A stretch of DNA of 64,000 bases from positions 1-64,000 of the forward strand of contig JAURDA010000004.1 of NCBI GenBank assembly GCA_030828165.1, given 5' to 3'. Shown piece by piece: positions 1,396 to 27,508 of the stretch; within the stretch, counting starts at the first letter, position 1; each line of letters starts with the position of its first letter. Source of the stretch: Candidatus Poseidonia sp. (lineage in GTDB: Archaea > Thermoplasmatota > Poseidoniia > Poseidoniales > Poseidoniaceae). The position numbers were made by a program, and so were the translations under genes. The notes beneath the pieces were generated by a model. It searched no databases and was not told the origin of the DNA. It saw nothing but the letters and a program-made list of their open reading frames with translations.

Positions 1396-3144
1396 TCAAT
1401 CCGTTTCGTCTTCGCTTTGAAGGTCGTAGATGCTTCCACCTTCCGAAGAGGCATCGGTCTTTTCTTCGTCCTCAATCGGCGGGATTTGATCCACCGGTTC
1501 GCTGAAGTCTTCCCGATCCTTCCTCGATTGAGCCGAAATGTAGAGGGCAAGACCGCCAAAGCCGATGAGGGCGACGATGAGGATGATGAGAGGGAACTCT
1601 TCCACCTCTTCTTCATACGACCAAGTAACGGGTTCAGAAACGGCACCCACATCCTCGTGGACGGACTCCGCAATACCCTCTAGGGCGGTGGGCAGCAAAG
1701 GCTTGCACGTCAACGCACCTTCACCCGCCGTGTAGCCGTACCACGTGAAGGGAATATCTTTCGCTTCGCCGGCCCCCAAACTCACGACCATTTGCGTGGT
1801 GTCGGCAATGTCCTCTCCCTCGTAGCACCAGATGTTCACGCTCGAGGCAGCGGCGTTGCCGGTGTTTTCAACGGTCACGGTTCCGGAGACGCTCTTGTTG
1901 GCAACGCCAACCGTTGTTTCCGGGGCGACGGCCGTGACGGTGATGAAGGGCAAGTCGAGTTCGATGGTCCCGGTTGAGGTGATGGGAGCATCGATGGTTT
2001 TGGAGAACGTCCCCCAGCTGCTGGTGATGGAAAGGGTGATGGTTGCGTCTTCTTGGTGAACCACGCCGTTGCCGTCCATCCAAGCCACCATGCGCTTCTT
2101 TTCGTTGGTCTCGCCCGGTCCAACCAGCACGATGTCTCCGTTGGCATCCGTTAGGTCGTTCCAATCGTTAGCGTTGTAGCCGATGTTGTAAATGTCGAGG
2201 CTGCCGTTGGGAATGTTGGTGGTCAACGTCCGCTCGGAGAGAATTCGGACCCAAGCATCGGTTGTGCCCCCGGTGCCTTGGCTGTTGGTGTAGGTGATGG
2301 CCGCTTCGTCGTGCAGCACGATGTCCTCGTCGGTTCGAGAACCGCTGACGATGGAATTGAGAACGCTAACCGTTGAGGTACTAGCGGCGTGTATTGGGGC
2401 GCTTCCGGTTAGGCTGGTGCCGTCAAACGAACAGAGAGCGGCGCACGAGATGTTCCCGCCGAGGACGGTGGAACTCGTGACGGTCAAATCGCCGTGGGCG
2501 TGAAGGTCGAAACCCGATTGAAACCAGTACAGCGGTGCTTCGGTTGCGGGGATGTCTTGCGCAGGAATCGTCACCGTATCGCCTCCGCTGTGGATCGCCT
2601 TGGCCCACAGCACGTAGGTCGGCGTGAAATAGCCAGCTTCCACGGATATTTCCAAGTCGGTCCCGTTGAGCGGGACGTCGAATTCCACCGTATCGGTACC
2701 CGATGCGTTCACGGTGATGTTGCCGTAGGTGAAGTTGACCTTCGCACCGTCGGCAACCACGTGGTCGAGCTTGAGTTGCACAACGCCCGATTCGGCGATG
2801 TCCCCGAAATTCAGGGTGAGCACGGCAGGGACAAAGCCGTTGACTTCCACTCGGAGGCCGGCGTTGAGGTCGTCGCTGAGCAAGGCACCGTTGGTCAGCA
2901 CCAGTTGGGCACCTTCCTCAACGGTGATGGAGGAGCCTGTCGCCATGGTGATGTTTGCACTCACGGTCAACGTGCTTCCGCTTTCGACCGTTACGTGCCC
3001 GTCCATCGTGGTGTCTTCGGTCCAGGCTTCGTTGGCTTGAAGGGTGGCGTTGTCGCCGTTCGACGGTGGTCCGGCCGATACGGCCATGGACGACATCAGG
3101 AGCAGGGTCATCATCAACAAGGCTCGGCTAAGTTGGCTTCGCAT
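1396..3144 (-). CDS. Type I membrane surface protein with CARDB-like domain
   Basis: 582 residues from the ATG at 3144. The frame stays open further upstream, but that stretch is antisense to purD and has no protein-like character. Residues 1-23 form a clear signal peptide (Arg, then a Leu/Met-rich core, ending V-S-A-G). The body is beta-rich, with Ser/Thr and N-x-S/T sequons. Its first part resembles a short beta-helix (repeated value-like strands). Around residues 400-520 an Ig-like CARDB-type domain is visible (VTVENTGNAAASSVNIWC). A single TM (FPLIILIVALIGFGGLALYI) precedes a cytoplasmic tail of about 45 residues that is strongly acidic. It is divergent from purD with a gap of about 100 bp. 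An envelope protein; the ligand or role is unknown. Confidence 0.8.
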   Translation of the reverse strand: MRSQLSRALLMMTLLLMSSMAVSAGPPSNGDNATLQANEAWTEDTTMDGHVTVESGSTLTVSANITMATGSSITVEEGAQLVLTNGALLSDDLNAGLRVEVNGFVPAVLTLNFGDIAESGVVQLKLDHVVADGAKVNFTYGNITVNASGTDTVEFDVPLNGTDLEISVEAGYFTPTYVLWAKAIHSGGDTVTIPAQDIPATEAPLYWFQSGFDLHAHGDLTVTSSTVLGGNISCAALCSFDGTSLTGSAPIHAASTSTVSVLNSIVSGSRTDEDIVLHDEAAITYTNSQGTGGTTDAWVRILSERTLTTNIPNGSLDIYNIGYNANDWNDLTDANGDIVLVGPGETNEKKRMVAWMDGNGVVHQEDATITLSITSSWGTFSKTIDAPITSTGTIELDLPFITVTAVAPETTVGVANKSVSGTVTVENTGNAAASSVNIWCYEGEDIADTTQMVVSLGAGEAKDIPFTWYGYTAGEGALTCKPLLPTALEGIAESVHEDVGAVSEPVTWSYEEEVEEFPLIILIVALIGFGGLALYISAQSRKDREDFSEPVDQIPPIEDEEKTDASSEGGSIYDLQSEDETD

Positions 3145-3246
3145 GGTGAAAAGCAGAAGTGGCGGATGAATAAGCGTTCTTCCGTCCATGTACGGCAACG
3201 AGCGCATCGCGAAGGGATTATGCGTTGCCGATTGGTCCAACAAAAC

Positions 3247-4521
3247 ATGGAAGCAGCCTCGGTTTTGGTGGTTGGAAGCGGAGGTCGAGAACATGCTCTT
3301 TGCTTGGCCTTGCACGAATCCACGAGGGTTTCCGCCCTTCATTGCGTTCCCGGAAATGCCGGCACGGCCCTCCTCGCCACGAACCACGACGTTACGGTGA
3401 CGGAAAGCGAATTGATGCCGCTTATGCATTCGCTCGGCATTGATTTGGTCGTCGTTGGGCCCGAGGCTCCGCTTTGTGCTGGACTTGCGGACGCCTGCGC
3501 AGCGGCCGACATTCCGTGCTTTGGTCCCGTCGCCGCCCTCGCCCATTTGGAGGGCTCAAAGTTGCATGCCAAGGAAACGATGCAAGCCGCAGGCGTGCCC
3601 ACCGCTGATTACGTGCGTTTGGATGCTTCAAGCGACGTGGATGCAGCACTCGATGCTTACGCAGGTCAACCCTGGGTGGTCAAGAGGGATGTGCTCGCCG
3701 GTGGCAAAGGTGTGGTGGTGACGTCCGACCGCGAAGAGGCAAAGGCCTTCATCCACGCTTCCGTGGCTACCGATGGTTTTGTTTTGCTCGAAGCCTTCCT
3801 CCCGGGGGAGGAAGCCAGCATGCTCGTTGTGATGGACGGGACGGCTTTTCGTACCCTACCGGCCAGTCAAGACCACAAACGTGCGTATGACGGCGACCAA
3901 GGCCTCAACACGGGTGGCATGGGTGCATATTGCCCCGCCCCGGTGGTTTCACCGGCCGTTCATGCTCGCATCGTTGACCGCATCGTTGAGCCCATGCACC
4001 GTCATCTCGCTTCACAACCCGTGCCCTATCGTGGTGTGCTCTTCATCGGGTTGATGATCGATGCCGATGGGGATCCCTACGTGGTTGAATTCAACGTTCG
4101 TTTCGGTGACCCTGAATGTCAAGTGACGCTTCCCTTGCTCAAGACCGACGTGTTTTCGCTGCTGTACGGAGCCGCTACGGACGAACTTCACGATGTGGAA
4201 CTCAACGTGTCCGAAGAGACGGCGGTAACGGTGGTTCTGGCGTCGGAAGGGTATCCAGCTTCTCCGATCAAGGGTCGTCCGTTGACCGGCCTCGATGCGT
4301 GCTTGGCTCGTTCAGCGTACGGTGCTGCTTGGGTCAATTTTGCAGGTGTTGGGCGCGGTGAGGACGGGGAATATCTCGCCACGGGAGGCCGTGTTCTTTC
4401 AACAACTGCTCAAGCCGTTGACCTCCAATCTGCACGAACGAACGCTTACGAAATGATGGACCAAATCACCCTCGAAGGCGGCCATTTTCGCACCGATATC
4501 GGCCACCGAGCCTTGCCGTGA
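3247..4521 (+). CDS. purD: Phosphoribosylamine--glycine ligase (GAR synthetase)
   Basis: 424 residues, the normal length for PurD. It catalyses the ATP-dependent joining of glycine to 5-phosphoribosylamine in purine biosynthesis, in the cytoplasm. The N-terminal domain starts with VLVVGSGGREHAL, the family signature. The ATP-grasp nucleotide-binding stretch VVKRDVLAGGKGVVV lies near residue 145, and NVRFGDPECQ near residue 285 carries the metal-binding Glu/Asn region. The ATG at 3247 gives a start that fits the family. The same frame is open for 250 codons upstream, but only antisense to the neighbouring surface gene. There is no obvious Shine-Dalgarno, so it may be leaderless. It stands alone among envelope genes; no other purine gene is adjacent. 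Confidence 0.96.
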   Translation: MEAASVLVVGSGGREHALCLALHESTRVSALHCVPGNAGTALLATNHDVTVTESELMPLMHSLGIDLVVVGPEAPLCAGLADACAAADIPCFGPVAALAHLEGSKLHAKETMQAAGVPTADYVRLDASSDVDAALDAYAGQPWVVKRDVLAGGKGVVVTSDREEAKAFIHASVATDGFVLLEAFLPGEEASMLVVMDGTAFRTLPASQDHKRAYDGDQGLNTGGMGAYCPAPVVSPAVHARIVDRIVEPMHRHLASQPVPYRGVLFIGLMIDADGDPYVVEFNVRFGDPECQVTLPLLKTDVFSLLYGAATDELHDVELNVSEETAVTVVLASEGYPASPIKGRPLTGLDACLARSAYGAAWVNFAGVGRGEDGEYLATGGRVLSTTAQAVDLQSARTNAYEMMDQITLEGGHFRTDIGHRALP

Positions 4522-4669: not shown

Positions 4670-7600
4670 ATGGAAGAACATACGGAAACGACGGCAAATC
4701 AGCCTGGCGCCATCATGGGGTTGCTGCTCGCACCCTTGGCCGTGCTGCTTGCCCTTGCCACCACCCGAGTCGTGGGCATTGAATACGACTTGACATTGAA
4801 CAACATGATGCCGATGCTCGTCGTCGCCATCGCCAGCATGCTGGCTCTTGTGCCACGCATCGTTCAGGACGCTCGACCCGAATTCGCCTCTTCCACCCTT
4901 TCCCTCGGCGTGCTCGCAATTGCGTTCTTCGGTGCTGAAGTGCTCCACTCCTTCTTGGGCGTCGACGCGCTTGCTGCGCTGATGTTCGCTGTCCTTGTGG
5001 CGTTGGGGTCCAACTTTGACCGCCGTGGCCGTCACGAATGGGTCGCTATGATGACCTTTTCCGGCGTTGGCTTCTGGTTGGCCCTCGCTGCTGCAGGCGA
5101 TGCCCTCGCGGCGCTGCCTTCAACCTACACGATGGAGAGCGGGCAGCTTGTCTCGACCATGAACCTTGAACGCCAAGCCACGGCTTACGTCTTCTTCGCT
5201 TACTGGACGATGTTCACGGTTGCGGGTGTGTTGGCGGGCGTGCTCGCTCGAGGCACGCTCAACCCCGCAGGCGCTGAAGGCTGGTTTGCCTTCCTCGGCC
5301 AACACGAGGGTTTCAACCGCGCCAACCTCCCGCTTGTCATCGCCCTCGTCGTTTGGGTGCTCGCCTTCGTTGGCTCGCTGTTCCACTTCAACTCGGTGGA
5401 CACCATTGACCAATTGGCCATCACCACCGAAGCAGGTTACCACGGCTACATCGGCTACTGGACGGCCTTTTTGACCGGTTTGGTCGCCATAATCGTTGCC
5501 GGTATGTGCGCCGAGCGCTGGTACACCCGCGCCATGCTCGTGGGTTCCATGTGGGGTCTTTACCAAGTCGCTGCTTGGTTTGAAGCCGGCATTTGGTACA
5601 ACGAAGACATGGACGGCACCTGGGGTGCGCTGATCTGGCTCGGTATCACGTTCTTCTTGGGCGTGGGCATTTACTCCATCGGCAATCACGAAAAGTACGG
5701 CGGCTGGGCGAACCTTGGCGAGCATGAGCCCTCACAGGCTCGGCTCTTCCTTCGTGCACACGGTGCAGGTTTGATGATCGCTCTCGCCTTTTTGGTCGGC
5801 CTCGCCATTCGAATTCAATGGTACGCCGTGCCCTCGATGAACGCCTTCGGCACCGGAAATTGGGACATGACGGGGGGTTCGGACCCGTGGTACATGAAGC
5901 GCGTGGTGGATTACATCCTGGCCAACAACGCTCACTTGGTGTACGACGCCGACCGGTTCTATCCAATGGGCGGCATCAACCCGCGTCCTCCCCTCTTCTC
6001 GTGGTCCATGGCCATCGGTGCGATGTTCTTGGAGCCTTTCCTCACCACGCCTGAAGATGCCGTTTGGTGGAGCATGCTCGCTCTGCCCGCTGTCTACGGT
6101 GCGCTGACCGTGTTCCCCATCGCCATCATCGCCAAAGATCACTTTGGAAAAGGTGCAGGTGTCATCGCAGCATGGCTCATCGCCTTCATGCCCGCTCACG
6201 TGACCCATTCAACATGGGCGCTCGCTGACCACGACTCCTTCGTGATGCTCTTCATCTCGATCGGCTTCTTGTATTGGCTGCGTGCGGTGAAGTACGCCGG
6301 CTCGGCTCGGATCACCAAAGTGACCACGGCTCACCCGAAGTCCTTCTTCCAGGCTTACCTCGACGTGCTGGCACACCGCCAAGCAGCCGTCGCCAACGCC
6401 GTCCTCGCCGGTGTTGCCTTCGGTATCGTCTCCCTGGGTTGGAAAGGGTTCGTTGTCGGGCCGTCGATTCTGTTCCTCGCCTATGCATTGCAAGTGGCCT
6501 TGAACATGTTCCGACGACGAGATTCAACGACGCTGAGTGCGCTTTTCCTTACGATGCTGTTGACGACCTTCTTGATGGCCCTGCCGTTCTACGGGCACCC
6601 GGATTTCAACCTGATTCTCAATCCCACCGGGTTGCAACCCTTCCTGTTCATCTCCGGATTCACGCTGGCCATCGCCTTTGTGACCACCGGATTCCGTGAC
6701 AAGCCTTGGTTGCTCGTGCTCGGCACGCTCGGTGGATTGGCTGCGGTGTTCTTCGTTCTGCTGTTCGTCCTCAAGACGTTGGAGCTCTCCAACGCATGGG
6801 ATGTCCTATTCACGGGAAGCGGCTACTTCACGAAGACCAAGATTTTCGGTACCGTTGCTGAAGCCAACGCCCCGAACCGAGCCCAACTCTTCGCCTCCTT
6901 CGGACCCATCACGTTCTTGCTCGCGCTCATCATCGGCGGCGGGCTTCTCTGGAAGGGTCTACGATACCGCAAAGGCACGGAACTCGTCTTCGGTGTGTGG
7001 GTCTTCGCAGCCACCTTCATGGCTTGGAACGCAGCTCGTTTCATGTTCAATGCAACCCCCATAATGGCCGTTCTTGGTGCAGCGGGTATCGTCGCCCTTT
7101 GGCAGTGGGCCAACTGGAGCGGCGTGGTTCGTTCGTGGAAGAAATTCGGTATTCGAACCCCAGCCGACCGCATCACGGGTGCACGAAAGGCTGTTTGGCG
7201 GACGCCGCAATTCTCGGCGATTTTTCTCGTGATGATCATGATTTTCAGCCAACAAGCCACCTACGGCTTGGACTCTGCTATCCCGGGAACCTCCAACCAA
7301 GAGGGCGAAATCGACGAGCGAATATACAACATCGTCCCCGATATCCTGCGTTTCGATGCCCTTGGCTTCTCGGTGCTCGACAGCAGCAACTACGACGGTC
7401 GATGGTACTTGGGCAGCTTCGGTTCCTCCTTCAACGACAACGGCTGGAATGCAGCGTACGAATGGCTTGCGAATCAAGATACGGAAATGAAGTATTCAGA
7501 AAAGCCGGCTTTCGTCTCGTGGTGGGACTACGGTTTCCAAGCCATGAGCACCGGTGAACATCCGTCGGTTTCGGACAACTTCCAGTCCGGTATCCCCGCA

Positions 7601-10600
7601 ACGGGGAACATGCTCTTGGCGCGCAACCAAGACGACCTCACAGCGATGTTCATCTGGCAACTCGCCGAGGGCGACCGAACCTACGCCACCGTTGACAAAT
7701 CGGACCACAAGTTCACCCAGACGTTCCAGAACACCGTGGATAAGTACCTCAACGATGCACAAATGGACGACTTCCTGACGATGCAAACCACGTTTGACGA
7801 GAGCATGATCGACTTCATCGAACTTCGTTCGTTCAGCGTCGTGAAAACCAACCGAAACATCGTGATGGCGGAGGGACATCCCTCCACCGCCGGTGTCTTC
7901 GACGCTGACTCCACGATTTATCGCATCTACAAAGACGGCGTGCCTCTCCCCTGTACCGAGGAATTCTCCTCCTCCTGTTTGGGTGACGCTTGGTCGTCGA
8001 TGAGCGAAGCCAACATCACCTTCACGAACAACATCCGCACCCCGGACGAAACCGTGATGGGACGAACGCACTCCATCATCGGCGATTACTGGTACACGGC
8101 CGACCTCATCGATGAATACCTCTCCGTCTCGACGCATATTCATCGAACAAACGCCCGCTTGGCCATGATGACGCAACTCTTGACGGATGCTTTTGATGCA
8201 CACCCGACCGCTACCATCCACGATCTCTACAACGACCTCATCAACTTGGAAGGCTTTTACCGCGTCCAAGACTACGAAGGTGCACCCGGAGAGACCATCA
8301 ACCGTGACCACGAGATTCGGTATTTCGCTATCGACGACCGACTCTACCCCCGTGCCGGCCGATACACGGCCGACTCCAACTACAACCGCGGCCAACCGAT
8401 GGGTATCTTCGGTGCTCCAACGATCCTCTCAGGACAAGACATCGGGACCTACATGGACGAGGTGTACGAGACCGTCCGCGGCGACTTCCAAGACGAGATG
8501 ACTCGAGAAGAAGTTGACGAGGCCATGCAGAAGGACTTCCTCAACCAACAAGCTGGGGCCGATATTGACCCGTTGCAGATTCAGGACGTCCGTGTGGACC
8601 ACAACCCCGCCTTCTTTGACACGATGGTCGCTCGGGCCTACGTTGGGTACGGGGCTTCAACGCTCGGCCTCAACACCGCAGCGAGCAACCCCCAACCCGC
8701 CCAACACTTCGGCCAGTCGGGTTCACCCGGCAGCATTTTGGCGAACTCCCTCCCGCTACCGGGGGCCATGATGAACCACTTCGTCATCTCCAACTGGTAC
8801 TCGGAGGACGAAACGGTCAGCATCCAATCCACGAACACCTTGGTGAAGATTCTGAAGTACTACCCCGGTGCAGAATTGACCGGTCAAGTGACGATGAGCG
8901 ATAACGGCGAGGGCCTTCCCGGTGTTCGTTTGCTCATCGAGCGGGATGCTTTCTCCGGTGACGGTTCGGTTGACAACGATGAGGACACCTACTGGATCCC
9001 CATCGGCTTTGTCGATGCGGATGACGACGGAAAGTACAGTTTCCTTGCACCTGCTGGACGCATTCGCGTGACCGCCTTTGCCGGTGATTACGACCCAAGC
9101 GAGGCTCAAGACAACCTCCGAGACGGCTCGTACGCAGAACGCTTGAGTGACATCTTGACCGAGACCAACGACGACCGACAAATCAACGAAATCACCGCTA
9201 TCCTCGGACAAGTCGCCAACATGAGTTGGCTTGGAGAAGCCCAACTCAACGTGACGGCTGACCAAGCCAATCGCGTGGTGACCATGGACCGCACGCTCGA
9301 TGTCGCTATCGAGAGCAGCGGTGTGTCCGGTACGGTGACCTGGAGCGGCGATGAAGCGTTCAACGGCGACCCGATCGCTGAAACCACGTTCATTCTCCGC
9401 AACATCTGGTCGATGACCGACAACTACACCGTCGTCACCACCAGCGGTTCGTTCACTTCGGAAGAATCCCGTATCCTCCAAGGCACGGGTGAAGCAACGC
9501 TCACCGAGAGCGGTTCGTTCGACAGCGAGGGCATTGCCCTCGCCAAGAACTTCATCGGAACCTTCACGCGTGACATCGGAACCGAACGTTCCTTCTTCGC
9601 CAACGGTACATGGAACGGAAACGGTTTGCTGGAAGCCTCATGGATTGGCGCCGAGAACATCACGGCTTGCGAGACCGACAACAGCTCAAACGCCGTGATG
9701 CCTGCGAACGAAACCCTCTGCGTCGTGGATGCGACCACCACGCCCCCAACCTACCGGTTGGAAGGAACGGTTGACGCTCAAGGGACGTTTACCTCCGAAG
9801 GGACCTCCACGCTGAGCCGAACGTACGGTGATGCCGACGCTGGTCAAGGCGAAACGATTGAAGGCGCAGGGCTGTTTGAAGGAACGGGAACGTTCAACGG
9901 GACCGGTCTGTTCATCGGTGTCGGATCCTTCTCTGGGCCGATGGTTGAACCCGGTTCGTTCTACAAGACGGGATTGCTGCCGGGCACCTACAACATGATC
10001 GCCCAGTTGGCCAACGGGAAGGAAGTCCTTCTTCCCGACCCCGTTGAAATCGGCGTCATTCCTTCGTTTGATTTGACGATGAACATGCCGGGAGCCATCT
10101 TCACCGATGTGCTCTCCAACATGGTTGGCGACGGTCTGGCAAACACCACCATCGAACTGATTGACCGTGACCTTGGTGAAGAGGCTGCGGTCAGCATCGT
10201 CACGGATGAGTTGGGCAACTTTTCCTACGGGCCCGTTGCAAAGGGCGACTACTACTACCGCGTGGACGTTGACGGCGACGGGTACTACGACCTCAACGAA
10301 TCGGTCATGGTTCTTGATGACACGACCAACATCACCCTCGCCATGGGCGTGCCCGATACCGTCGACGTCACCATGACGTTGGTTTCACCCGTCGACCCGT
10401 TGACGCAGGAGCCGCTCTTTGACGTGGCAAACCGAACCATCACGTTCGAAAACACCGAAGGCATTTTGGAACCCGTGAACATCACTTCCGACGAAAACGG
10501 GGAACTCTTTGTTGAGTTGCTCTACGGTATTTGGGACATCCGCGATGACACCAACACGGACTTTGTTCTGTTTGACCAAGTTGACCTTCCGCCGGGTACG

Positions 10601-13600
10601 GAAGACGTTGTGAAGGACGTGACCTATGCCCAAGCTGCGTACATCAACGGTAGCCTGCGCTCCTATCCGGGCGTTACTGTCGAGGAATACGATGCTTGGC
10701 TTGACGCAACGCTTGAGGAAGACAAGGTCAGAACCACCGAACCCGCTACGGCGTTGTCCGTCAACTTCGTGTCCGGTGCGTTGGCCTTCACCGCCGTTAC
10801 CAACCTCACGGGTGACTTCTCCGTCCGCGTCCCTTCAGGATTGACCTACCACATGACCACAGAGAGCGTCATGGCGAACCGTGGGTACGGCGAGTTGGTC
10901 GAAGTGGAGGCGGGTGTTGATCTCGACCTCGGCCCCCTCTTCCTCGAACCTTCTACCGCTGTGTCGGGTATCCTCTACCTCTATGACAACACCACGCGCT
11001 GGGACGCAACCCAACCGCTTTGGGAAGCGGTTGATGTGGTTGCTACCAACCAAGATGGATTGGAGTGGCGCACAACCGTTTCGGATACGGCGACGTTCTT
11101 CTTCGACCTTCTGGACGGTGATTGGGACTTGTCGGTTGACGACGAGCGACTCAACGTTTCGGTGATCGAAGATGTTTCGGTGAACCATTCGCTTTCAGAG
11201 AGCCTTTCCACCATGGATTTGATCGCTCACCCCGAGGCCATTGAACTCACCTTCAACATCTATCTCGATGCTGGCGGCGATGGCCTGCTCGAAAACGGAA
11301 CCTTGGTGTCTCCAGACTTCCACTTGAAGCCCATCGATGAAAACAAGGAAAGCTTGTACTTCACGGCGGACGATTACACTTCAAACGGCAACATCACCTT
11401 GGCTCTCACGCCAGGTGGCTACGACCTCGTGTTCAACCGAACAACGGCCGTTTCGGAGAATGCAACCGACTACGACTTGGTCGGCGTGCAGTTCTTTGAC
11501 GCCATCGTCGTCGGATTGGACGCTTTGGATGAGCCGTTTGATGTCGCCCTGAAGAACACCTATCTCGTGAACGGCACGCTGACGAACAGCACCGGTGACG
11601 GCATTGCGAACGACTTCCTGCTCTACAACGAGGCCGAAGACCAGTGGTTCAACATCGGTTCAGACGACAACGGAACCTTTGCCGCCTACGTCCCTGCAGG
11701 TGAATGGCTTGCCATCGTCGCGCCGTTCTCAAACGGGAACGATACCGAAACGCTTCGCTCGCCGATATCCGTTCAGCACGATTCCGCACGGCTTGACCTT
11801 GCGCTGACAACCCGTGTGAGCGTTGAAGTGACGCTGCAATTGAAAGCATGGCTGACCAACGACTCGCTCGCCGACATGACGGTGACCGCTGTCAGTCAGG
11901 ACGGCTACGGCAACATCACCTTTGACCGAACCGATGCAAACGGGAACGCAACCGAGATGATGATGCCGGGTACGTGGAGCCTTTACCTCAACCGGACCGT
12001 TGGCGCCCAATCTTGGTTCTTGGACACGAGTGACGCACCGTTCTCCACGGATGACGCCGTCAACAACAGCCTTGTTCTTGACCCCGTTTACGCTGAACTC
12101 GAAGTCGAAATCGGCGGGAAGGTCTACTGGGATCTTGACAACAACAGCCTCCCGAGTATAGGCGAAGGAATCGCTGAGTTCAACGTCACGTTGCAAGGCG
12201 TGAACCATTCGGATGTCACCATCGATACGGTGACCGACAGCGAAGGTGTTTGGCGTGCATTTGTGCCCATCAGGGATGTCTACAACGTGACCGTCGCCAA
12301 GGAAGGCTTTGAAACGGTCTACTACACCACGGAAAACGAATCTGGATTTGCCGTATACGACAGTCCGGATTCCCGTGACATCGAAGTCACGGCGGGTTTT
12401 GTCGAGGTGTTCGGTTACGTCACCGACCAGTTGGATGCCCAGCGTCTCGTTGACGCCGATATCGTGCTGTATCCCGTCGCGGGCGTTGAACGCGACCCCA
12501 TCGGTTTGGACGGTGCGATGAACGGCACGACCTTGGAATGGTCGGCGAGCATTCAACCCGGTGACTGGGTCGTGGTTGTTCGGGAAGCCAATCCCGGCGC
12601 GAACGGTGGCGGTGTTGCCATCGGCCTCTTGGAGGCCACCGTGTCCAACGGGGGCAACATCACCTTGGTCATGGCGCTTGGCGGTTACGTCGACCTCTCC
12701 ACGGCTTGGGCCGATATCGAACAAAACGAACATCACGCCGGTGCCGACGATGATGGAGCGAGCATGATTCAGGACGTTGTTGAACTCGAAGTCACCTTCG
12801 AGGACATGACTTGGGTGCTTCCGCTGCCATCCTCCGGAAAGTGGACGAAACTCCTCTTCCCAGAGGGTACCATCGCCTTTGACAGCGAGTTTACCACGGT
12901 TCAGCACGAGCGCCAATTGGAAATGGAATACTTCGGTGGCCAGACCACTTCGGTGGCTGCGGACTCGACCATTGCGGCGACCCTCAACTACAACCGACGG
13001 GTCAACTCCAACCTTGACGTGACCTTTGACGAGGCCTCGGTTGGAAGCGATGCAACGGTGATCGATGTTGAGGACGTTGAACTAGAAGCCATGGTCTCGT
13101 CCGGCAACGAATCGGTGTTCAACACCATCACGTTTGATTACACGGTCAACTACAACGGCACAGAAATCGTGGATGTCTTCACCGTGAGCGGTGAACTGGG
13201 TCTCGCCCAGGATTCCGAGGATTGGACCGTTCAAATCTGGAACAGTTCCAGCAATTCCTACGAGGACAGCGTTGAAATCGCTCTTGGAATCGGCGACAAC
13301 GAAACCGATGCAGCGCTCGCAGCGACGGTGACGGTTCAAGTGACCCTCCCCGACGTGGCCGACGCGTGGAGTCTCGAGAACGGTCACCGTGTCACGGTCC
13401 GTATGGAGACCGATTTGGGTGAGGCCACGCAAACCTCTGCGAAAATCTTCGTGCCGCAGACCTACGCCTTCAGCATTTCCGATGCTACCGATGAACTCGG
13501 CATGTCTGCGCTTGTCGAACGCCGCTTCTCCTTTGACATCACCAACGATGGAAACGGGCAAGACACGTTCACCATTGAACTCTTGGAAAGCGGTGTTCTC

Positions 13601-14245
13601 GAAGGCTGGTCCATCACCCCAATGACCTCAACCCTAACGCTGAGCAAAGGCGAGACCCGAACCCAGCAGTTCACGGTGTTTGCCCCCGAATCCTTCACTG
13701 AGGGCTCGTTTGATTTGACCGTTTACGTCAACAGTGTTGACGAAGCGGTTGCGCAGCAGACGGTTGTTGTCAACGTGCAGGCTGCTGTGATCAAGCTGGA
13801 GGTCAAAGAATCGAACATCGTCCTCAAATCCGACGACGTTGCGAATCAACCTGGCAGCATTCGTGTACCCGTCACCAACAACGGGTTCTTGGACGCTCCG
13901 TCGGTTCTCGTCTATCTTGAGCCCACTTCGCCCACAAGTCAAGCAGAACGTTCGGTGACCATCAGCGTCCCGGCCGGGGAAACCGTTGAGGCCGTGTTCG
14001 ACGACATGACCTTCATTCAGGGCAATCAGCGCTTCAACATCCGTATTGAGGTGGCCGGTGCTGAAACGACCAGCGTTGACTCCATTTCGTTGCCGTTCGG
14101 CGACACCTTCTCCTTGGAGTATTACACCCAGACCGAGAGCGATGGCGAGTCCATTTGGATGACGCTCCTCATCGTGGTTCTGGGCGTTCTCGTGGTGGTT
14201 GGTGGTGTGAAAACCGCTCGCAGCAGCCGTGGCGGGAAGTTCTGA
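4670..14245 (+). CDS. aglB: Giant AglB/STT3 oligosaccharyltransferase with extended extracellular tail
   Basis: 3191 residues, about three to four times a usual AglB. It should transfer a lipid-linked glycan to Asn in N-x-S/T sequons on the outer face of the membrane. Residues 1-365 are an extra region of about nine TM segments. The STT3 fold starts near residue 366. D405 (GSDPWYMKR) is in the place of the first metal-binding acidic motif, D520-H521-D522 (ADHD) is the second, and WWDYG at 951-955 is the family signature. Near residue 1397 the usual AglB end runs into a carboxypeptidase-regulatory-like domain. A chain of such beta domains then continues to about 2900, interrupted at about 1590-1765 by a Gly/Ser/Thr/Phe-rich repeat stretch. 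Residues 2937-3037 look like a NEW3/COG1470-type domain. A TM lies at about 3162-3183. The tail carries more than 35 N-x-S/T sequons. The frame is open throughout. Confidence 0.93.
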   Translation: MEEHTETTANQPGAIMGLLLAPLAVLLALATTRVVGIEYDLTLNNMMPMLVVAIASMLALVPRIVQDARPEFASSTLSLGVLAIAFFGAEVLHSFLGVDALAALMFAVLVALGSNFDRRGRHEWVAMMTFSGVGFWLALAAAGDALAALPSTYTMESGQLVSTMNLERQATAYVFFAYWTMFTVAGVLAGVLARGTLNPAGAEGWFAFLGQHEGFNRANLPLVIALVVWVLAFVGSLFHFNSVDTIDQLAITTEAGYHGYIGYWTAFLTGLVAIIVAGMCAERWYTRAMLVGSMWGLYQVAAWFEAGIWYNEDMDGTWGALIWLGITFFLGVGIYSIGNHEKYGGWANLGEHEPSQARLFLRAHGAGLMIALAFLVGLAIRIQWYAVPSMNAFGTGNWDMTGGSDPWYMKRVVDYILANNAHLVYDADRFYPMGGINPRPPLFSWSMAIGAMFLEPFLTTPEDAVWWSMLALPAVYGALTVFPIAIIAKDHFGKGAGVIAAWLIAFMPAHVTHSTWALADHDSFVMLFISIGFLYWLRAVKYAGSARITKVTTAHPKSFFQAYLDVLAHRQAAVANAVLAGVAFGIVSLGWKGFVVGPSILFLAYALQVALNMFRRRDSTTLSALFLTMLLTTFLMALPFYGHPDFNLILNPTGLQPFLFISGFTLAIAFVTTGFRDKPWLLVLGTLGGLAAVFFVLLFVLKTLELSNAWDVLFTGSGYFTKTKIFGTVAEANAPNRAQLFASFGPITFLLALIIGGGLLWKGLRYRKGTELVFGVWVFAATFMAWNAARFMFNATPIMAVLGAAGIVALWQWANWSGVVRSWKKFGIRTPADRITGARKAVWRTPQFSAIFLVMIMIFSQQATYGLDSAIPGTSNQEGEIDERIYNIVPDILRFDALGFSVLDSSNYDGRWYLGSFGSSFNDNGWNAAYEWLANQDTEMKYSEKPAFVSWWDYGFQAMSTGEHPSVSDNFQSGIPATGNMLLARNQDDLTAMFIWQLAEGDRTYATVDKSDHKFTQTFQNTVDKYLNDAQMDDFLTMQTTFDESMIDFIELRSFSVVKTNRNIVMAEGHPSTAGVFDADSTIYRIYKDGVPLPCTEEFSSSCLGDAWSSMSEANITFTNNIRTPDETVMGRTHSIIGDYWYTADLIDEYLSVSTHIHRTNARLAMMTQLLTDAFDAHPTATIHDLYNDLINLEGFYRVQDYEGAPGETINRDHEIRYFAIDDRLYPRAGRYTADSNYNRGQPMGIFGAPTILSGQDIGTYMDEVYETVRGDFQDEMTREEVDEAMQKDFLNQQAGADIDPLQIQDVRVDHNPAFFDTMVARAYVGYGASTLGLNTAASNPQPAQHFGQSGSPGSILANSLPLPGAMMNHFVISNWYSEDETVSIQSTNTLVKILKYYPGAELTGQVTMSDNGEGLPGVRLLIERDAFSGDGSVDNDEDTYWIPIGFVDADDDGKYSFLAPAGRIRVTAFAGDYDPSEAQDNLRDGSYAERLSDILTETNDDRQINEITAILGQVANMSWLGEAQLNVTADQANRVVTMDRTLDVAIESSGVSGTVTWSGDEAFNGDPIAETTFILRNIWSMTDNYTVVTTSGSFTSEESRILQGTGEATLTESGSFDSEGIALAKNFIGTFTRDIGTERSFFANGTWNGNGLLEASWIGAENITACETDNSSNAVMPANETLCVVDATTTPPTYRLEGTVDAQGTFTSEGTSTLSRTYGDADAGQGETIEGAGLFEGTGTFNGTGLFIGVGSFSGPMVEPGSFYKTGLLPGTYNMIAQLANGKEVLLPDPVEIGVIPSFDLTMNMPGAIFTDVLSNMVGDGLANTTIELIDRDLGEEAAVSIVTDELGNFSYGPVAKGDYYYRVDVDGDGYYDLNESVMVLDDTTNITLAMGVPDTVDVTMTLVSPVDPLTQEPLFDVANRTITFENTEGILEPVNITSDENGELFVELLYGIWDIRDDTNTDFVLFDQVDLPPGTEDVVKDVTYAQAAYINGSLRSYPGVTVEEYDAWLDATLEEDKVRTTEPATALSVNFVSGALAFTAVTNLTGDFSVRVPSGLTYHMTTESVMANRGYGELVEVEAGVDLDLGPLFLEPSTAVSGILYLYDNTTRWDATQPLWEAVDVVATNQDGLEWRTTVSDTATFFFDLLDGDWDLSVDDERLNVSVIEDVSVNHSLSESLSTMDLIAHPEAIELTFNIYLDAGGDGLLENGTLVSPDFHLKPIDENKESLYFTADDYTSNGNITLALTPGGYDLVFNRTTAVSENATDYDLVGVQFFDAIVVGLDALDEPFDVALKNTYLVNGTLTNSTGDGIANDFLLYNEAEDQWFNIGSDDNGTFAAYVPAGEWLAIVAPFSNGNDTETLRSPISVQHDSARLDLALTTRVSVEVTLQLKAWLTNDSLADMTVTAVSQDGYGNITFDRTDANGNATEMMMPGTWSLYLNRTVGAQSWFLDTSDAPFSTDDAVNNSLVLDPVYAELEVEIGGKVYWDLDNNSLPSIGEGIAEFNVTLQGVNHSDVTIDTVTDSEGVWRAFVPIRDVYNVTVAKEGFETVYYTTENESGFAVYDSPDSRDIEVTAGFVEVFGYVTDQLDAQRLVDADIVLYPVAGVERDPIGLDGAMNGTTLEWSASIQPGDWVVVVREANPGANGGGVAIGLLEATVSNGGNITLVMALGGYVDLSTAWADIEQNEHHAGADDDGASMIQDVVELEVTFEDMTWVLPLPSSGKWTKLLFPEGTIAFDSEFTTVQHERQLEMEYFGGQTTSVAADSTIAATLNYNRRVNSNLDVTFDEASVGSDATVIDVEDVELEAMVSSGNESVFNTITFDYTVNYNGTEIVDVFTVSGELGLAQDSEDWTVQIWNSSSNSYEDSVEIALGIGDNETDAALAATVTVQVTLPDVADAWSLENGHRVTVRMETDLGEATQTSAKIFVPQTYAFSISDATDELGMSALVERRFSFDITNDGNGQDTFTIELLESGVLEGWSITPMTSTLTLSKGETRTQQFTVFAPESFTEGSFDLTVYVNSVDEAVAQQTVVVNVQAAVIKLEVKESNIVLKSDDVANQPGSIRVPVTNNGFLDAPSVLVYLEPTSPTSQAERSVTISVPAGETVEAVFDDMTFIQGNQRFNIRIEVAGAETTSVDSISLPFGDTFSLEYYTQTESDGESIWMTLLIVVLGVLVVVGGVKTARSSRGGKF

Positions 14246-14298
14246 TTCAAGCCGTCCAACGAACAAGAGTTCTTGTGCTCGTTGGAGGGTCTTGGTCC

Positions 14299-15510
14299 AT
14301 GGAGGGTTTGCGGGACGTCGAGTACCTGCCTGAACCCAGCGACCGGAGCATCGTTTCCGCCGTCGAGCCGACCGTCATCGGTTTTCAGGACGAGTGGCGC
14401 TCAGAGATCATGGGCTGGGCTCCCCTCCCGGTCGAGCCGGTGGTGAGAACCCGTCGGCGGCAACGTTCCGTGGGTGGACTGGTCGTTTTCGCTCTGCTCG
14501 TTTCTGCAAGTCTCGTGATGTGGCAAAATCAATGGGTTGTGGTGGAACTTCCTCCACCGAACTCCGAATGGGCCTTCGTTGACTCTGGAATTCGTTCGCT
14601 CCAAGAATCCGGATTGACCGGCGAGGGCGTTCGCGTCTGCATGGTGGACACCGGGATTGATTTGTCCCACGAAGCGTTCTCAGGCAAAGAGGTCGTCTTC
14701 AAAGACTTCATCGGAGGTTCAACGACTCCGGTTGACTACGGTGCCGTCGCCCACGGCACCCTGATGGCGGGACTGATGATCGCTACCGGGCACCAAACCG
14801 GTTCAGCACCGAACGTGACCTTTGCGATGGCAGCCGCCCTGCAGGACAACGGTGAAGGTGAAAACACCGGTTTCGACAGCGACGTTGCCGACGCCATCCG
14901 CTGGTGCCAGTTTGATTTTGAAGCGGACATCATCTCCTTGTCGCTCGGCGGTACCGAGCGTGCACAAACCGGCGATGAAGGCTCTTCTGCGGCCGCCACG
15001 CGGCAAGCGACGGACGCCGGGATCTTCGTGGTCGCTGCCGCCGGGAACGACGGGCTTTCGGACGACGGGGACGTCGCATCGCCCGGTAGCGTACGCCTTG
15101 CGATTTCGGTGGGGGCAACGACACAATCCGGTGTTCTTTGGGAAAACTCCTCGGTCGGTGCACGGGAAGATCCCGATGCCACCTTACGGGAATCGCCTCA
15201 TGAAAAGCCCGAAATCGTGGCCCCTGGCCATCGCATCATCAGCACCGGCGAGGACGATCTTTGGTACTCCAGCAGCGGAACATCGGACTCCACCGTCTTC
15301 GTTGCTGGTGCATTGGCACTGATCCTTGAGTCCCAACCCAATCTGAAGCCTTTGGTTTCCCAGGACACGTCGTGCATTGATCGGGTGAAACTTGCGTTGG
15401 CCCAATCCGCACAACCGTTGTCAAGCGAGCGGCACGATGCCCGAGCGGGATACGGCTTCCTCGATGCGGACGGTTGGTTGGCCAATATCGGTGTTGTTTC
15501 GGAGTGCTGA
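14299..15510 (+). CDS. Membrane-anchored subtilisin-like serine protease (S8)
   Basis: 403 residues from the ATG at 14299; an in-frame GTG at 14275 is possible. A cytoplasmic N-terminal stretch of about 55 residues ends in RTRRRQR. One TM follows (GGLVVFALLVSASLVMW), then an extracellular S8 domain, so this is a type II (N-in) signal-anchor protein without a classical propeptide. Catalytic residues are in order: D117 (CMVDTGID), H152 (AHGTLMAG), oxyanion N250 (AAAGNDG) and S329 (SSGTSDSTVFVAG). The sequence after the serine departs from the usual GTSMAAPHVAG. It starts 53 bp after aglB in the same direction, probably co-transcribed. It may process exported or glycosylated envelope proteins, which is an inference. 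Confidence 0.9.
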   Translation: MEGLRDVEYLPEPSDRSIVSAVEPTVIGFQDEWRSEIMGWAPLPVEPVVRTRRRQRSVGGLVVFALLVSASLVMWQNQWVVVELPPPNSEWAFVDSGIRSLQESGLTGEGVRVCMVDTGIDLSHEAFSGKEVVFKDFIGGSTTPVDYGAVAHGTLMAGLMIATGHQTGSAPNVTFAMAAALQDNGEGENTGFDSDVADAIRWCQFDFEADIISLSLGGTERAQTGDEGSSAAATRQATDAGIFVVAAAGNDGLSDDGDVASPGSVRLAISVGATTQSGVLWENSSVGAREDPDATLRESPHEKPEIVAPGHRIISTGEDDLWYSSSGTSDSTVFVAGALALILESQPNLKPLVSQDTSCIDRVKLALAQSAQPLSSERHDARAGYGFLDADGWLANIGVVSEC

Positions 15511-15650: not shown

Positions 15651-15713
15651 GGCCGGCGATTGAGGCGCAGTATTATATTCGTGGCGTTCATGGAGCGTCT
15701 AGGTGCATCCGTC

Positions 15714-18700
15714 ATGTCACGCCGAAAGCAAGCAAAATCTCTGTCGCTCGTCCTTCTCTACATGGTCTCCATCATGGTGGGGATGGTCAGCCTTCCTACG
15801 GTGATGGCCAACAACGAAACCACGCAAGGCACCGTGACGGGTGTTGAAACATGGTCGGGTACCATGAATCTTCAAGGCGATGTTGAAGTCGCTGAAGGTG
15901 CGAAACTCATCATCAACGCCGGCACCACCGTGAACATTCCGTTCGGGAAGTTCATTGACGTCAAAGGCGCCATTTGTGTCGGCGATGCCGCCTGCGGTGC
16001 CAGTCAAGGTTCCGCATCCTCCAAGGCACGCTTCATGTGGTCACTTCCCACCGATTACACCAAAGTTGGTCGTTGCTATGTCAACGGATCGAGCACCTTC
16101 ACCAACGGAGATGCTGCTTGTGGCTCCGGTTTGGTGATTCGGGATACCATCGACCAGTCGATCACGTCCATCAACTTCGCTCACTTTGAGAACGCTTACG
16201 GCTACCCCATCTACGTGCAAACGCTTCAAGCCGTTCAGTACGGTGCGTTGGTGTTTGACGGTTCGAGCACCACGGCACGGGGACTCTCGTTTACCGACAT
16301 TAACACCTCCAACGTCATCGCCATTGATTTCGCATCGCCGACCATCAGCGAGTCCACGTTTGAACTCGGTATCGATGGACGAGGATACGATGCCGCTGCT
16401 GTGCGTGCCTATGGGGCAGGTGCAGGTATTCTGGCCACCTTTGAGGTCAAGGACTCAAGTTTCACCGGCAACGACGCCGATTGTGGCCAACAAGGCGGAG
16501 GTCGTGCGGTTCTCTTCATCGAAGATTCCTACATCGACATGGACAACCTCGACATCTCGCAAAACTCCTACGGTGTGCTGATGAAATCAAGCTCCGGTTC
16601 GCTAACCAACTCTGAAATCGACGTCAAGTGCAACGCCATTGACACGAACTCGTTGAAGACAACGGGTACGATTGAACACACCCTCACCATCACGAGCAAC
16701 ATCATCACCACGGCGGAAGGAGCAGGTTTGACGGCCTACGACGGTGCCAAGGTGTACGCTGAACGAAACACCATTTCCGGGGCCACCGAAGGTTCTGGCG
16801 TCGGTATTCGTTCCTCGGTCGTTGAACTCCACGACAACACCATCGGTCCCATTGGAGGCTGGAACGGCTTGTGGATTTACGGCACCTCCGATGTGGTTGC
16901 CGAAAACAACACGATTCAGGATACCGGAAAAGAACCCGTCCTCATTGGGGAATACCACTACCAGGACCAGGGCTGGCAAGTGCCTGCACCCACCGCCGCT
17001 CGTCTCTACCTCGCCAACAACGTCATCTCAAACAACTCCGGGACGTGCAACTCCCAAATGTACGGCGGCGACTTCCCTTGCCCTGCCGTGCACGTGTTCC
17101 GTTCATCGGCCAGCATTCTCGACAACACCATCTCTGGAAACAACGGCGACATCATCCGTGCCAAGGGCGCCCTCGTGAACGTCCAGCGCAACACCGCTGA
17201 CAGCCAAGGTGGATTTGCAGGCAACATCAGCCTTCACGACGATAACTACGGAAACAAGTACGGCTCCGTGGCCTATTTCTCCGGCAACACGTGGACCGGC
17301 GTTTCCCAAGTCTACAACATCACGGAATCCCGCGTGACCGTTCAGTCCGAGCAAATTCCTTCGCCGGGCTTCAACCAGTCCTATCCCGTCAACATTCGTT
17401 GGCTCGGCGCCGAGTGCCCGTACGTCCAGGACGAGTGCTTGCAACTGCCCGACACCGTTGCTCTCCCCCCCGCTCAGATGCCGTTGGCGCTTGAACTCGT
17501 GGAAAACGCAACGGTGTTCTCGTTCGCCGACCTGCAGAACTTTGACTCGACGATGATCCACGTTCAAAACCAAAACACCGCTTGGGGCTCTCAAGTCCGG
17601 GAAGGTGAACTGGTCCGGTACCAAGTCAAAGCGAAGAACTCCAACGTCGCCGGGGCAACGGTCGTCATCAAGGACGCAACCGGTCTGCCTCTCTACGAAC
17701 TCACAACCGACGCGCTGGGCTACACGCAAGAGGTCTCGCTCCCGTCCGATTTCCTGCTCGACCGGAATTGGAACCACGTTGTCGGCGACAAGAACGCCGC
17801 CATCCCCGGTACAAACGACGGAACAGGACAACCCATCGTCGTTGACGAGGATTCCTGCGCTGACGGGATTGACAACGACGGCGACACCTTCGTTGACGAA
17901 TTTGACCTTTCTTCGGGCGCCGGTGACAACTCAAACTGCGAGAACGGCAACCGTGAGATGCCGTTTTACACGGTTGAAGCCTTCAAGTTTGGAAGCGGTA
18001 CGAAAGAACTCTCCTACGTGTTGAGCGGTCCGGTGAACGACGTCATCAACCTCGACAACCTCCGGCCCGGCGTGACCGTGAATGAGCAGGACGGCACGTC
18101 GTTTGCGACCACCGTTCGCCTGACCGGCCAGGCTTGGGACGGCGCAAAATGGCCTTACGCCAACGACAACACCGCTGTTCAATCGCAATTCGGGAAGATT
18201 CAGCGGGTTGAGATTCAGCCGCCGGGTTCCACCGACTGGTACACCGCCTCCGACACGTCCGGCTCTGGCGGCGAAATCACGATGGCGAACCATCCGTTCA
18301 AGGACTGGCTCTTTGAGTGGGACATGTCGGCTCATCCCGAAGGCGAGGGCGACGTGACGTTCCGGATCCGTTCCTACGACGGTCTGGATTATTCACCGGT
18401 CGAAGTTCGGCAGTACAAGCTCAACTTGGTCGCACCCACCATTTTGGTGGATGTCCCGACGACTGGAAGCACGTTCAACACCGGCAAGGTGCTCTTCCAA
18501 GGTACGGCCTCCGACCCCTATCAGGGAACCTACGGCAGCGATGTGAAACAAATCTGGTTCCACATTTCCGGCTCGGGCGGTTTCGAGCAGCAATTCTTCC
18601 AGGCGGGCTCAACCAGTTGGTCCTATGAATGGGACGTTGGCGACCTCCCAAGCGGTGACTACACCGTTACGGTCTGGGCTGCCGACAGCGACTTCTGCAT

Positions 18701-20132
18701 TGACAACAACACCGGATGTCAGGTTGAAGTTCGAACCATCACGATCAACAACGAAAACATCCGTCCGAATCTCCAACTCTCGTGGATCGGCGCAGCCGAT
18801 CAGTCCTCTGGCGGCATTGACGGCGATACCGTTCGGGCTTCAACCGAGACCAAGATTGTCGGTGTAGCCCGTGACGTTGGTGGCTTTGTGACCCGTGTTG
18901 AAATCGAAATCACCGACCTCGCCAACGGCCTGTTGCTCAACGACGGTCCACTTCCGGTCACGTCGTTCAATGCCGACGGTTCGTGGGTGGCCAACTGGGA
19001 CACCTCCGATCTCGTTCACGACCGGGTGTATTCCGTGACGGTTCGAGCATACGACGGTGATGATTACTCCGACGATATCGTCTGGCGAATGACCATCAAC
19101 AACCCGCTTGATGCTGAAAACATCGATCCCGTGTTCAACGAAACGGGATGGGTGGGGACATGGACCATTTTCTGTGATGAAAATTCCAACTCCTTCGACC
19201 GCTGCGGTGGTGGAGTGACCTTTGACCTCGGTGATTTCTTCTCGGACCCCGACGGAACGGGGACCCCTGCCGACGACTTGGAGTTCTACATTTACGATGA
19301 CCCGGAAAATTCGCAAGACGACATGTACTTCGATTTCATCCGAATCTCTGCTGATGGATTGCTCACCTATGATCCTGTTTCCATGATGAGCGTGACCAGC
19401 AACATCCCCGATTGGTCCTTGGACGGCGTGATGATCTATGCTCAAGACGACCAAGAATCAAAGGCCTATTCCCTGAAGGTGAATTTCCTTGTGCTTGGGG
19501 TCTCCTTTAGCGTTGAACGAGCCGACTCCGGCGCCATCACCGTGAGCGATCCCGCTACGTTCCGGGGGACAGGACTTCCCGGAAGTACGGTGAACCTTCG
19601 GTTCGCAAGCGGGAACTCACTCCTGAACAGCACCAAGGTTCTCTCCGACGGGACGTGGAGCATGGACCTCTCGGCCAGCCAACTCGGGATTGAAGGGGAT
19701 TCTGCAGTGGTCTTCGAGATGGACGACCAATACTTCAGGTTCGCCGGTCAAGCCCAAACTGAAAAGGGCGAGTTCAGTATATCGGTTGCAGGCTCTGAAG
19801 ACGGCGGTTCGGGTGTTCTCGGTATCGTTCTCATCGTCCTTGCCGTTCTGGTGTTGCTCGGAGCAGGTGCGTTCTTCTTCATCGAATTTGAGGAAGTGGT
19901 TGACGAAGCAGAGTTGACCGGCGATGATGCCCAGGAGGCGGAGGACCCCTACGCTTGGGCCAAAGCCAAGCAAACGCCAAGTCTTCCCGAACAGTCCGCA
20001 GCGCCCATGGAAACCGCAGCAACGGTCGCTGAAACGCCGGCGCCCGCCGCATCGCAACATCCGGGTTGGTTGTGGGATGAAGCCACGAATCAGTGGGTTC
20101 CCGATCCCAACTACCAGCAACCGCCACAGTGA
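15714..20132 (+). CDS. Right-handed beta-helix surface protein with C-terminal TM and Trp-rich tail
   Basis: 1472 residues from the ATG at 15714, chosen because an AGGTG lies just upstream and a proper signal peptide follows (RRKQAKSLSLVLLYMVSIM). ATG 15690 and TTG 15660 are also in frame. Residues about 40-530 have the strand-and-turn pattern of a parallel beta-helix (many N-N-x-I, D-N-T-I turns), as in NosD/pectate-lyase-like proteins. Near residue 715 there is a Cys/Asp motif (SCADGIDNDGDTFVDEFD) resembling MopE-type metal-binding repeats. Several Ig/fibronectin-like domains follow to about 1350. A TM at about 1367-1390 precedes a cytoplasmic, Ala/Pro-rich tail ending in GWLWDEATNQWVPDPNY. 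The stop codon is followed directly by the next gene. An envelope protein; the ligand is unknown. Confidence 0.85.
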   Translation: MSRRKQAKSLSLVLLYMVSIMVGMVSLPTVMANNETTQGTVTGVETWSGTMNLQGDVEVAEGAKLIINAGTTVNIPFGKFIDVKGAICVGDAACGASQGSASSKARFMWSLPTDYTKVGRCYVNGSSTFTNGDAACGSGLVIRDTIDQSITSINFAHFENAYGYPIYVQTLQAVQYGALVFDGSSTTARGLSFTDINTSNVIAIDFASPTISESTFELGIDGRGYDAAAVRAYGAGAGILATFEVKDSSFTGNDADCGQQGGGRAVLFIEDSYIDMDNLDISQNSYGVLMKSSSGSLTNSEIDVKCNAIDTNSLKTTGTIEHTLTITSNIITTAEGAGLTAYDGAKVYAERNTISGATEGSGVGIRSSVVELHDNTIGPIGGWNGLWIYGTSDVVAENNTIQDTGKEPVLIGEYHYQDQGWQVPAPTAARLYLANNVISNNSGTCNSQMYGGDFPCPAVHVFRSSASILDNTISGNNGDIIRAKGALVNVQRNTADSQGGFAGNISLHDDNYGNKYGSVAYFSGNTWTGVSQVYNITESRVTVQSEQIPSPGFNQSYPVNIRWLGAECPYVQDECLQLPDTVALPPAQMPLALELVENATVFSFADLQNFDSTMIHVQNQNTAWGSQVREGELVRYQVKAKNSNVAGATVVIKDATGLPLYELTTDALGYTQEVSLPSDFLLDRNWNHVVGDKNAAIPGTNDGTGQPIVVDEDSCADGIDNDGDTFVDEFDLSSGAGDNSNCENGNREMPFYTVEAFKFGSGTKELSYVLSGPVNDVINLDNLRPGVTVNEQDGTSFATTVRLTGQAWDGAKWPYANDNTAVQSQFGKIQRVEIQPPGSTDWYTASDTSGSGGEITMANHPFKDWLFEWDMSAHPEGEGDVTFRIRSYDGLDYSPVEVRQYKLNLVAPTILVDVPTTGSTFNTGKVLFQGTASDPYQGTYGSDVKQIWFHISGSGGFEQQFFQAGSTSWSYEWDVGDLPSGDYTVTVWAADSDFCIDNNTGCQVEVRTITINNENIRPNLQLSWIGAADQSSGGIDGDTVRASTETKIVGVARDVGGFVTRVEIEITDLANGLLLNDGPLPVTSFNADGSWVANWDTSDLVHDRVYSVTVRAYDGDDYSDDIVWRMTINNPLDAENIDPVFNETGWVGTWTIFCDENSNSFDRCGGGVTFDLGDFFSDPDGTGTPADDLEFYIYDDPENSQDDMYFDFIRISADGLLTYDPVSMMSVTSNIPDWSLDGVMIYAQDDQESKAYSLKVNFLVLGVSFSVERADSGAITVSDPATFRGTGLPGSTVNLRFASGNSLLNSTKVLSDGTWSMDLSASQLGIEGDSAVVFEMDDQYFRFAGQAQTEKGEFSISVAGSEDGGSGVLGIVLIVLAVLVLLGAGAFFFIEFEEVVDEAELTGDDAQEAEDPYAWAKAKQTPSLPEQSAAPMETAATVAETPAPAASQHPGWLWDEATNQWVPDPNYQQPPQ

Positions 20133-27321: not shown

Positions 27322-27508
27322 GCGAACAAGTACAAGCGGTCGCGGGAGATTCTTGAACACACCGACAGAACCCGACGGTATCGAGTGTTTTGGCGTGCTT
27401 TCGCACGACGTCAAGGCGTGCATGTATGAACAATGTTCCATCACCCTCATAAGCAATCTGAGCAAGGTATTCTTTGAGCGAAGCGTATGCTTTGCAGCAG
27501 GCGAGAAC

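Follow-up and report, generated by a model that had tools for sequence, protein, structure and literature searches.

An AglB of 3191 residues with a long, sequon-dense C-terminal arm in Candidatus Poseidonia sp.

The archaeal oligosaccharyltransferases (OSTs) of the AglB type that have been compared in the literature measure 754-1054 residues, Haloferax volcanii AglB being 1054 residues long (PMC5131992). The enzyme of Archaeoglobus fulgidus (GT66; PDB 7e9s, 3waj, 5gmy), with 875 residues, carries an STT3 core, two acidic motifs, a TIXE-type motif and a WWDYG motif. Longer forms are encoded in the Thermoplasmatota, where records named Aciduliprofundum, DHVE2, Methanomassiliicoccus and Thermoplasmatales give AglBs of 2,047-2,409 residues when the contig permits. 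In the open-access literature, AglBs of at least 2,000 residues have apparently gone unremarked, and no paper joining "Poseidoniales" and "AglB" was found, which is weak evidence, since subscription literature lies outside this search.

Here we describe an AglB of Candidatus Poseidonia sp. (order Poseidoniales) encoded within the window, that is, the whole stretch of 64,000 nucleotides analysed (contig JAURDA010000004.1, assembly GCA_030828165.1). The relatives, two families within the order and a sister order with smaller genomes, form a pattern consistent with Poseidoniales. A preliminary description of this DNA had pointed out a 3191-residue AglB of unusual length at 4670-14245, in which an STT3 core with D405, D520-H521-D522 and WWDYG (951-955) is fused in frame to carboxypeptidase-regulatory-like and NEW3-like domains and a last transmembrane (TM) helix. 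The frame is indeed intact, the motifs lie at these very residues and are invariant in 26 orthologs, the predicted fold resembles that of Archaeoglobus AglB, and the domain chain is found again, its last members being NEW3/CARDB-like. The "1700-residue extracellular extension" stands as a long arm, but its size has to be corrected to about 1,760 residues (aa 1397-3156). The phylum-wide origin, an order-specific ten-helix module, an apparently order-specific Gly-rich insertion and the sequon density of the arm had been missed. The gene is built as follows:

4670..14245, + strand: aglB, one frame of 3191 residues with an ATG start and no internal stop; order-wide orthologs are equally long.
4670..5734, + strand: order-specific N-terminal membrane module, aa 1-355 (AlphaFold2 helices at 13-338).
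5735..7309, + strand: STT3 transmembrane core, aa 356-880 (PF02516; best Foldseek match AglB 7e9s, E 3.1e-10).
5882..5884, + strand: D405, catalytic Asp of external loop 1, aligned with GGNDPWYYYR of A. fulgidus AglB; invariant in 26 orthologs.
6227..6235, + strand: D520-H521-D522, second acidic motif (external loop 2); invariant in 26 orthologs.
6851..6862, + strand: TVAE 728-731, TIXE-type motif of external loop 5 (ortholog alignment).
7310..8836, + strand: C-terminal globular (catalytic) domain, aa 881-1389, with WWDYG 951-955 invariant in 26 orthologs.
8858..9304, + strand: junction motif YYPGAELTG and first arm domain (CarboxypepD_reg), aa 1397-1545 (motif scan, alignment).
9449..9934, + strand: Gly-rich long-strand insertion, aa 1594-1755 (AlphaFold2 strands of up to 26 residues).
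10070..12709, + strand: sequon-dense arm section, aa 1801-2680 (31 N-X-S/T against 8 reversed).
13421..14119, + strand: last beta-sandwich domains (NEW3/NPCBM_assoc-, CARDB- and choice_anch_T-like family matches), aa 2918-3150.
14138..14227, + strand: C-terminal TM helix, aa 3157-3186, followed by a short basic tail (hydropathy).

Assignment to AglB relies on family, motif and fold. The STT3 domain is matched at aa 392-661 (Pfam PF02516, E 2.5e-14, 54 bits for a cut-off of 24.5) and archaeo_STT3 at aa 369-1037 (NCBIfam TIGR04154, E 7.5e-49). With 166.8 bits, the latter match, to a haloarchaeal-type model, is far below the cut-off of 450 of this archaeosortase-system AglB subfamily. The best structural match of the core and its best PDB sequence match are both A. 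fulgidus AglB, with which it shares the motifs named above. Indeed, an AlphaFold2 model of aa 2-1200, built on a 26-sequence alignment, finds 7e9s first in Foldseek, and its significant hits are solely OST-type; the model has low confidence at the WWDYG stretch, perhaps because it ends at 1200, inside the domain. The TIXE-type motif, whose role in external loop 5 is taken from PMC8342417, reads TIAE in most AglBs of the order and of the phylum, and its Glu is invariant. A clear DK/MI motif (DXXKXXX[MI]) was not seen in the aligned region; order-only segments of the globular domain fall within aa 1044-1155. This frame is the single STT3 match in its genome, which is 84% complete. Elsewhere in the phylum, one STT3 frame of 1896 residues (L098; genome G257, family f17) has no recognisable WWDYG and sits on a very long tree branch.

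Two observations that could have undone the preliminary description, a frame split in related genomes and a tail missing in all relatives, were not made. Among the 58 genomes of the order with a match, own genome included, 42 have an open frame of 3,006-3,324 residues, and the tail occurs throughout the order and, in a shorter version, across the phylum. When 20 shorter frames of the order were re-read, most were found to hit a contig end, and we therefore rule out an assembly artefact. Breaks inside a contig occur in five genomes (G060, G014, G055, G148, G009), where a second long frame overlaps the break; their positions differ, as would be expected of sporadic sequencing errors. In one of these, the single-contig genome G060, aglB (L083) is read as two overlapping frames of 1603 and 1646 residues, through a frameshift or a sequencing error.

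Full-length AglBs measure about 3,124-3,335 residues within the order, and 2,293-2,375 in 15 of the 18 genomes of the sister order (f3) that have a match. In the rest of the phylum they mostly measure 2,079-2,744 residues, with some families at about 1,170-1,430. Since some members retain merely 300-500 residues of arm, the long arm is unnecessary for the enzyme as such. In a tree of the catalytic core, which is rooted at midpoint only and has several weak inner forks, the order is grouped and adjoins the sister order. Short-arm forms are nested among long ones, hence the long arm is likely old and has been shortened in places. The long AglBs of the phylum thus look vertically inherited, and the core tree is consistent with such descent. 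Altogether, we regard the protein as a genuine enlarged form of a known enzyme family, of long standing and well maintained; what is new in it is the N-terminal module confined to the order and the density of sequons in the arm.

The late position of the first catalytic Asp, residue 405, is due to an additional membrane domain of about 355 residues located ahead of STT3. This domain is predicted to form ten helices with the N-terminus inside, and its Lys and Arg residues are confined to alternate loops, those expected to face the inside. A. fulgidus AglB is devoid of such a module, and no homologous one was detected in the other Thermoplasmatota AglBs, which are about 1,000 residues shorter. 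A search of 116 phylum genomes gave matches in 23, every one of which belongs to this order. Pfam holds no family for aa 1-355, and comparisons with known families, with the STT3 core as a possible duplicate and with the N-terminal helices of families f13 and f20 gave no match. In the latter two families, the AglBs L102 (f13) and L101 (f20) have a hydrophobic N-terminal extension of their own, about 250 residues long, before STT3; no kinship to the ten-helix module is detectable, so that N-terminal membrane modules have apparently been added to AglB at least twice. The module would enlarge the membrane part of the enzyme.

On the other side of the catalytic domain, AglB and arm form one piece. 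The junction fits a consensus, [YF][YF]xGAx[VLI]xG, found in nearly all phylum AglBs read, including the short forms, and the AglBs of Aciduliprofundum, DHVE2, Methanomassiliicoccus and the Thermoplasmatales MAGs have the same junction motif and the same type of arm. CarboxypepD_reg is matched in three stretches of the protein, and in the arms of 26/26 orthologs; choice_anch_T is matched at aa 2918-3028 (Pfam/NCBIfam). The AlphaFold2 model of aa 1390-2589 (pLDDT 85.8) is nearly all beta, and over this range the predicted fold shows a chain of transthyretin-like/Ig-like beta-sandwiches. Judged by strand pattern and homologous segments, the arm would count approximately 14 domains. The Gly-rich insertion, with C1667, C1684 and Gly residues invariant in 26 orthologs, appears to be specific to the order: it is mostly unaligned in two outgroup profiles from outside the class and was not detected in the shorter AglBs of the phylum. 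The long Thermoplasmatota AglBs scanned for a C-terminal TM helix have one like the Poseidonia protein (f3, f24, f27, f26, f11, f7, f8), whereas A. fulgidus AglB has neither a multi-domain arm nor a TM helix of this kind. Two EF-hand-like calcium sites also occur in the arm, DADDDG at aa 1449-1454 (nt 9014-9031) and DVDGDG at aa 1866-1871 (nt 10265-10282); D1866, D1868 and D1870 of the latter are invariant in 26 orthologs.

The arm stands out by its glycosylation sequons. N-X-S/T motifs were counted against reversed S/T-X-N motifs as a control, as well as against residue shuffles. At aa 1801-2680 there are 31 sequons for 8 reversed motifs; shuffles give a mean of 8.0 (sd 2.6), and none out of 5000 reaches 31. 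Over 26 orthologs, the same section has 723 forward and 230 reversed motifs, forward exceeding reversed in 25/26, whereas the globular catalytic domain has 43 and 126, forward exceeding reversed in 0/26. Pooling does not give independent counts, since the orthologs are kin; the protein's own count together with the 25/26 consistency is the safer evidence. In about 345 kb of the same genome, sampled with crude ORF calling, cytosolic ORFs have 170 sequons for 172 reversed motifs and exported ORFs 244 for 198; no other stretch of 880 residues reaches 31 sequons, the next having 26. At nineteen alignment columns of the arm, half or more of the orthologs have a sequon, most strongly so at N1527, N1743, N2209 and N2858. 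Composition and beta-strand preference can also raise sequon numbers, a point which the reversed and shuffled controls answer in part. We take the pattern as a sequence signature of selection that would favour glycosylation along the arm and disfavour it at the active site. In other clades the arms reach 5-6.7 sequons per 100 residues, and the densest ones observed (L101, L102) have 99 in about 1,490 residues. In the sister order the density is only about 0.9-2.2 per 100 residues, and forward and reversed motifs differ little; heavy glycosylation is thus not constant across the family.

The best-supported reading, to which as a whole we give an even chance, is that the protein is a functional single-subunit archaeal OST whose chain extends into a long extracellular arm, anchored twice, to the catalytic domain at 1397 and in the membrane at 3157-3186, and that this structural arm is glycosylated in cis. 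Glycosylation and function of the arm are what we infer from these sequence features. The arm would probably be N-glycosylated while leaving the translocon, by its own active site or by that of a neighbouring copy, and, once coated with sugar, it would shield the enzyme and help build the outer coat. Extended to the whole phylum, the proposal would make the OST itself a main surface glycoprotein that glycosylates its own arm, catalyst and cell coat being one molecule; we put this forward as a speculation, with perhaps one chance in four. An oligosaccharyltransferase gene is reported among the highly transcribed genes of Marine Group II (PMC9723583).

Other roles can be envisaged for the arm. 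It might act as a guide on the translocon side, holding or docking nascent chains and keeping their sequons near the active site, in the manner of the lumenal domains that eukaryotic OST subunits possess, or of NOMO, a subunit of the BOS complex of the eukaryotic multipass translocon. By analogy, NOMO is built alike, with tandem prealbumin-like domains followed by one C-terminal TM helix, but it is a separate protein, unfused to STT3. The direct joining of the arm to the catalytic domain, and to the membrane at both ends, would suit such a role. Moreover, NOMO2 is the first PDB hit of arm profiles from three clades, this order (E 1.9e-6), the sister order (E 3.6e-12) and the Thermoplasmatales/DHVE2/Methanomassiliicoccales group (E 3.2e-30), and when 145 phylum genomes are scanned for NOMO_5th at E<=1e-3, all matches lie inside AglB frames (5/5). 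However, the repeat profile of an unrelated CarboxypepD_reg surface protein of 2682 residues likewise finds NOMO2 first (E 2.1e-16), and this protein scores 23.7 bits with NOMO_5th. A specific homology to NOMO is therefore not upheld, and the similarity reflects a common domain type only. About half of the 12 NOMO1-like_9th matches in phylum genomes are in AglB, and in the own genome the NOMO Pfam match is below cut-off. Single-sequence PDB searches did not find NOMO with one arm, nor with two controls, and so do not decide the matter. The best 50 Foldseek matches of the arm are mainly pilins, adhesins and macroglobulins, with one S-layer entry (7ptp) and no NOMO; finally, the arm shows lower conservation in 26 orthologs, which speaks against a precise docking surface. 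The translocon-side guide is improbable, at some one chance in five, and nothing specific here supports the substrate guide of the preliminary description.

Equally improbable in our view is a fused surface protein, in which AglB and a coat- or S-layer-like arm would be synthesised as a single precursor and the arm then cut free by a protease, possibly the one encoded next door. The genes concerned are:

2494..4521, + strand: upstream neighbour, ORF with purD (TIGR00877, E 1.6e-128), syntenic in the order.
14155..15510, + strand: downstream ORF with a membrane-anchored S8 subtilase (PF00082, E 3.2e-36), whose true start is probably after 14245.
15660..20132, + strand: next gene, a 1490-residue beta-helix surface protein (PF13229, PF17957), syntenic in the order.

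Both families of the order keep this succession of genes as far as the contigs allow, and it was not found in the sister order or beyond. The subtilase lies within about 100 bases after aglB at most loci, which suggests that the two may be co-transcribed, without implying action on AglB. At its C-terminus the beta-helix protein has a TM helix, and acidic residues, Ala and Pro abound in its cytoplasmic tail. Two further giant ORFs of the window, at 27155-33259 (2034 residues) and 33322-38769 (1815 residues), probably encode surface proteins; the former has very weak family matches only (short Ca-binding repeat, E 1.7e-5). Release of the arm would agree with its adhesin-like domain chain, with the presence, throughout the order, of the subtilase and its Asp/His/Ser motifs immediately after aglB, and with the detection of PTO0786, the STT3 protein of Picrophilus, in a secretome obtained from culture (PMC8345856). 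Yet cytosolic proteins such as EF-1-alpha are also in that secretome, so that lysis is likely, the arm retains its own TM anchor, and outside the order long arms occur without a subtilase neighbour. The subtilase was dropped as a candidate arm protease, its neighbourhood being restricted to the order. The rigid spacer and the S-layer-like element of the preliminary description would be possible roles. A mainly mechanical spacer, whose length and not its sugar would matter for placing the catalytic domain in a thick envelope, agrees with the narrow lengths kept in the order and the sister order while arm identity drops to 22-30%, but it leaves the sequon enrichment unexplained and, with both ends in the same membrane, the arm would be a loop, which makes this the least probable view, at about one chance in ten.

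Characterised AglBs have about 750-1,050 residues, against about 3,190 for this one, the sole OST detected in an apparently marine lineage, and across most of the phylum the enzyme has at least 2,000 residues. Self-glycosylation of the arm, if it occurs, would tie the OST to the surface coat within a single chain. This bears on surface protection in archaea without a conventional wall, and on the accessory parts of OSTs outside eukaryotes.
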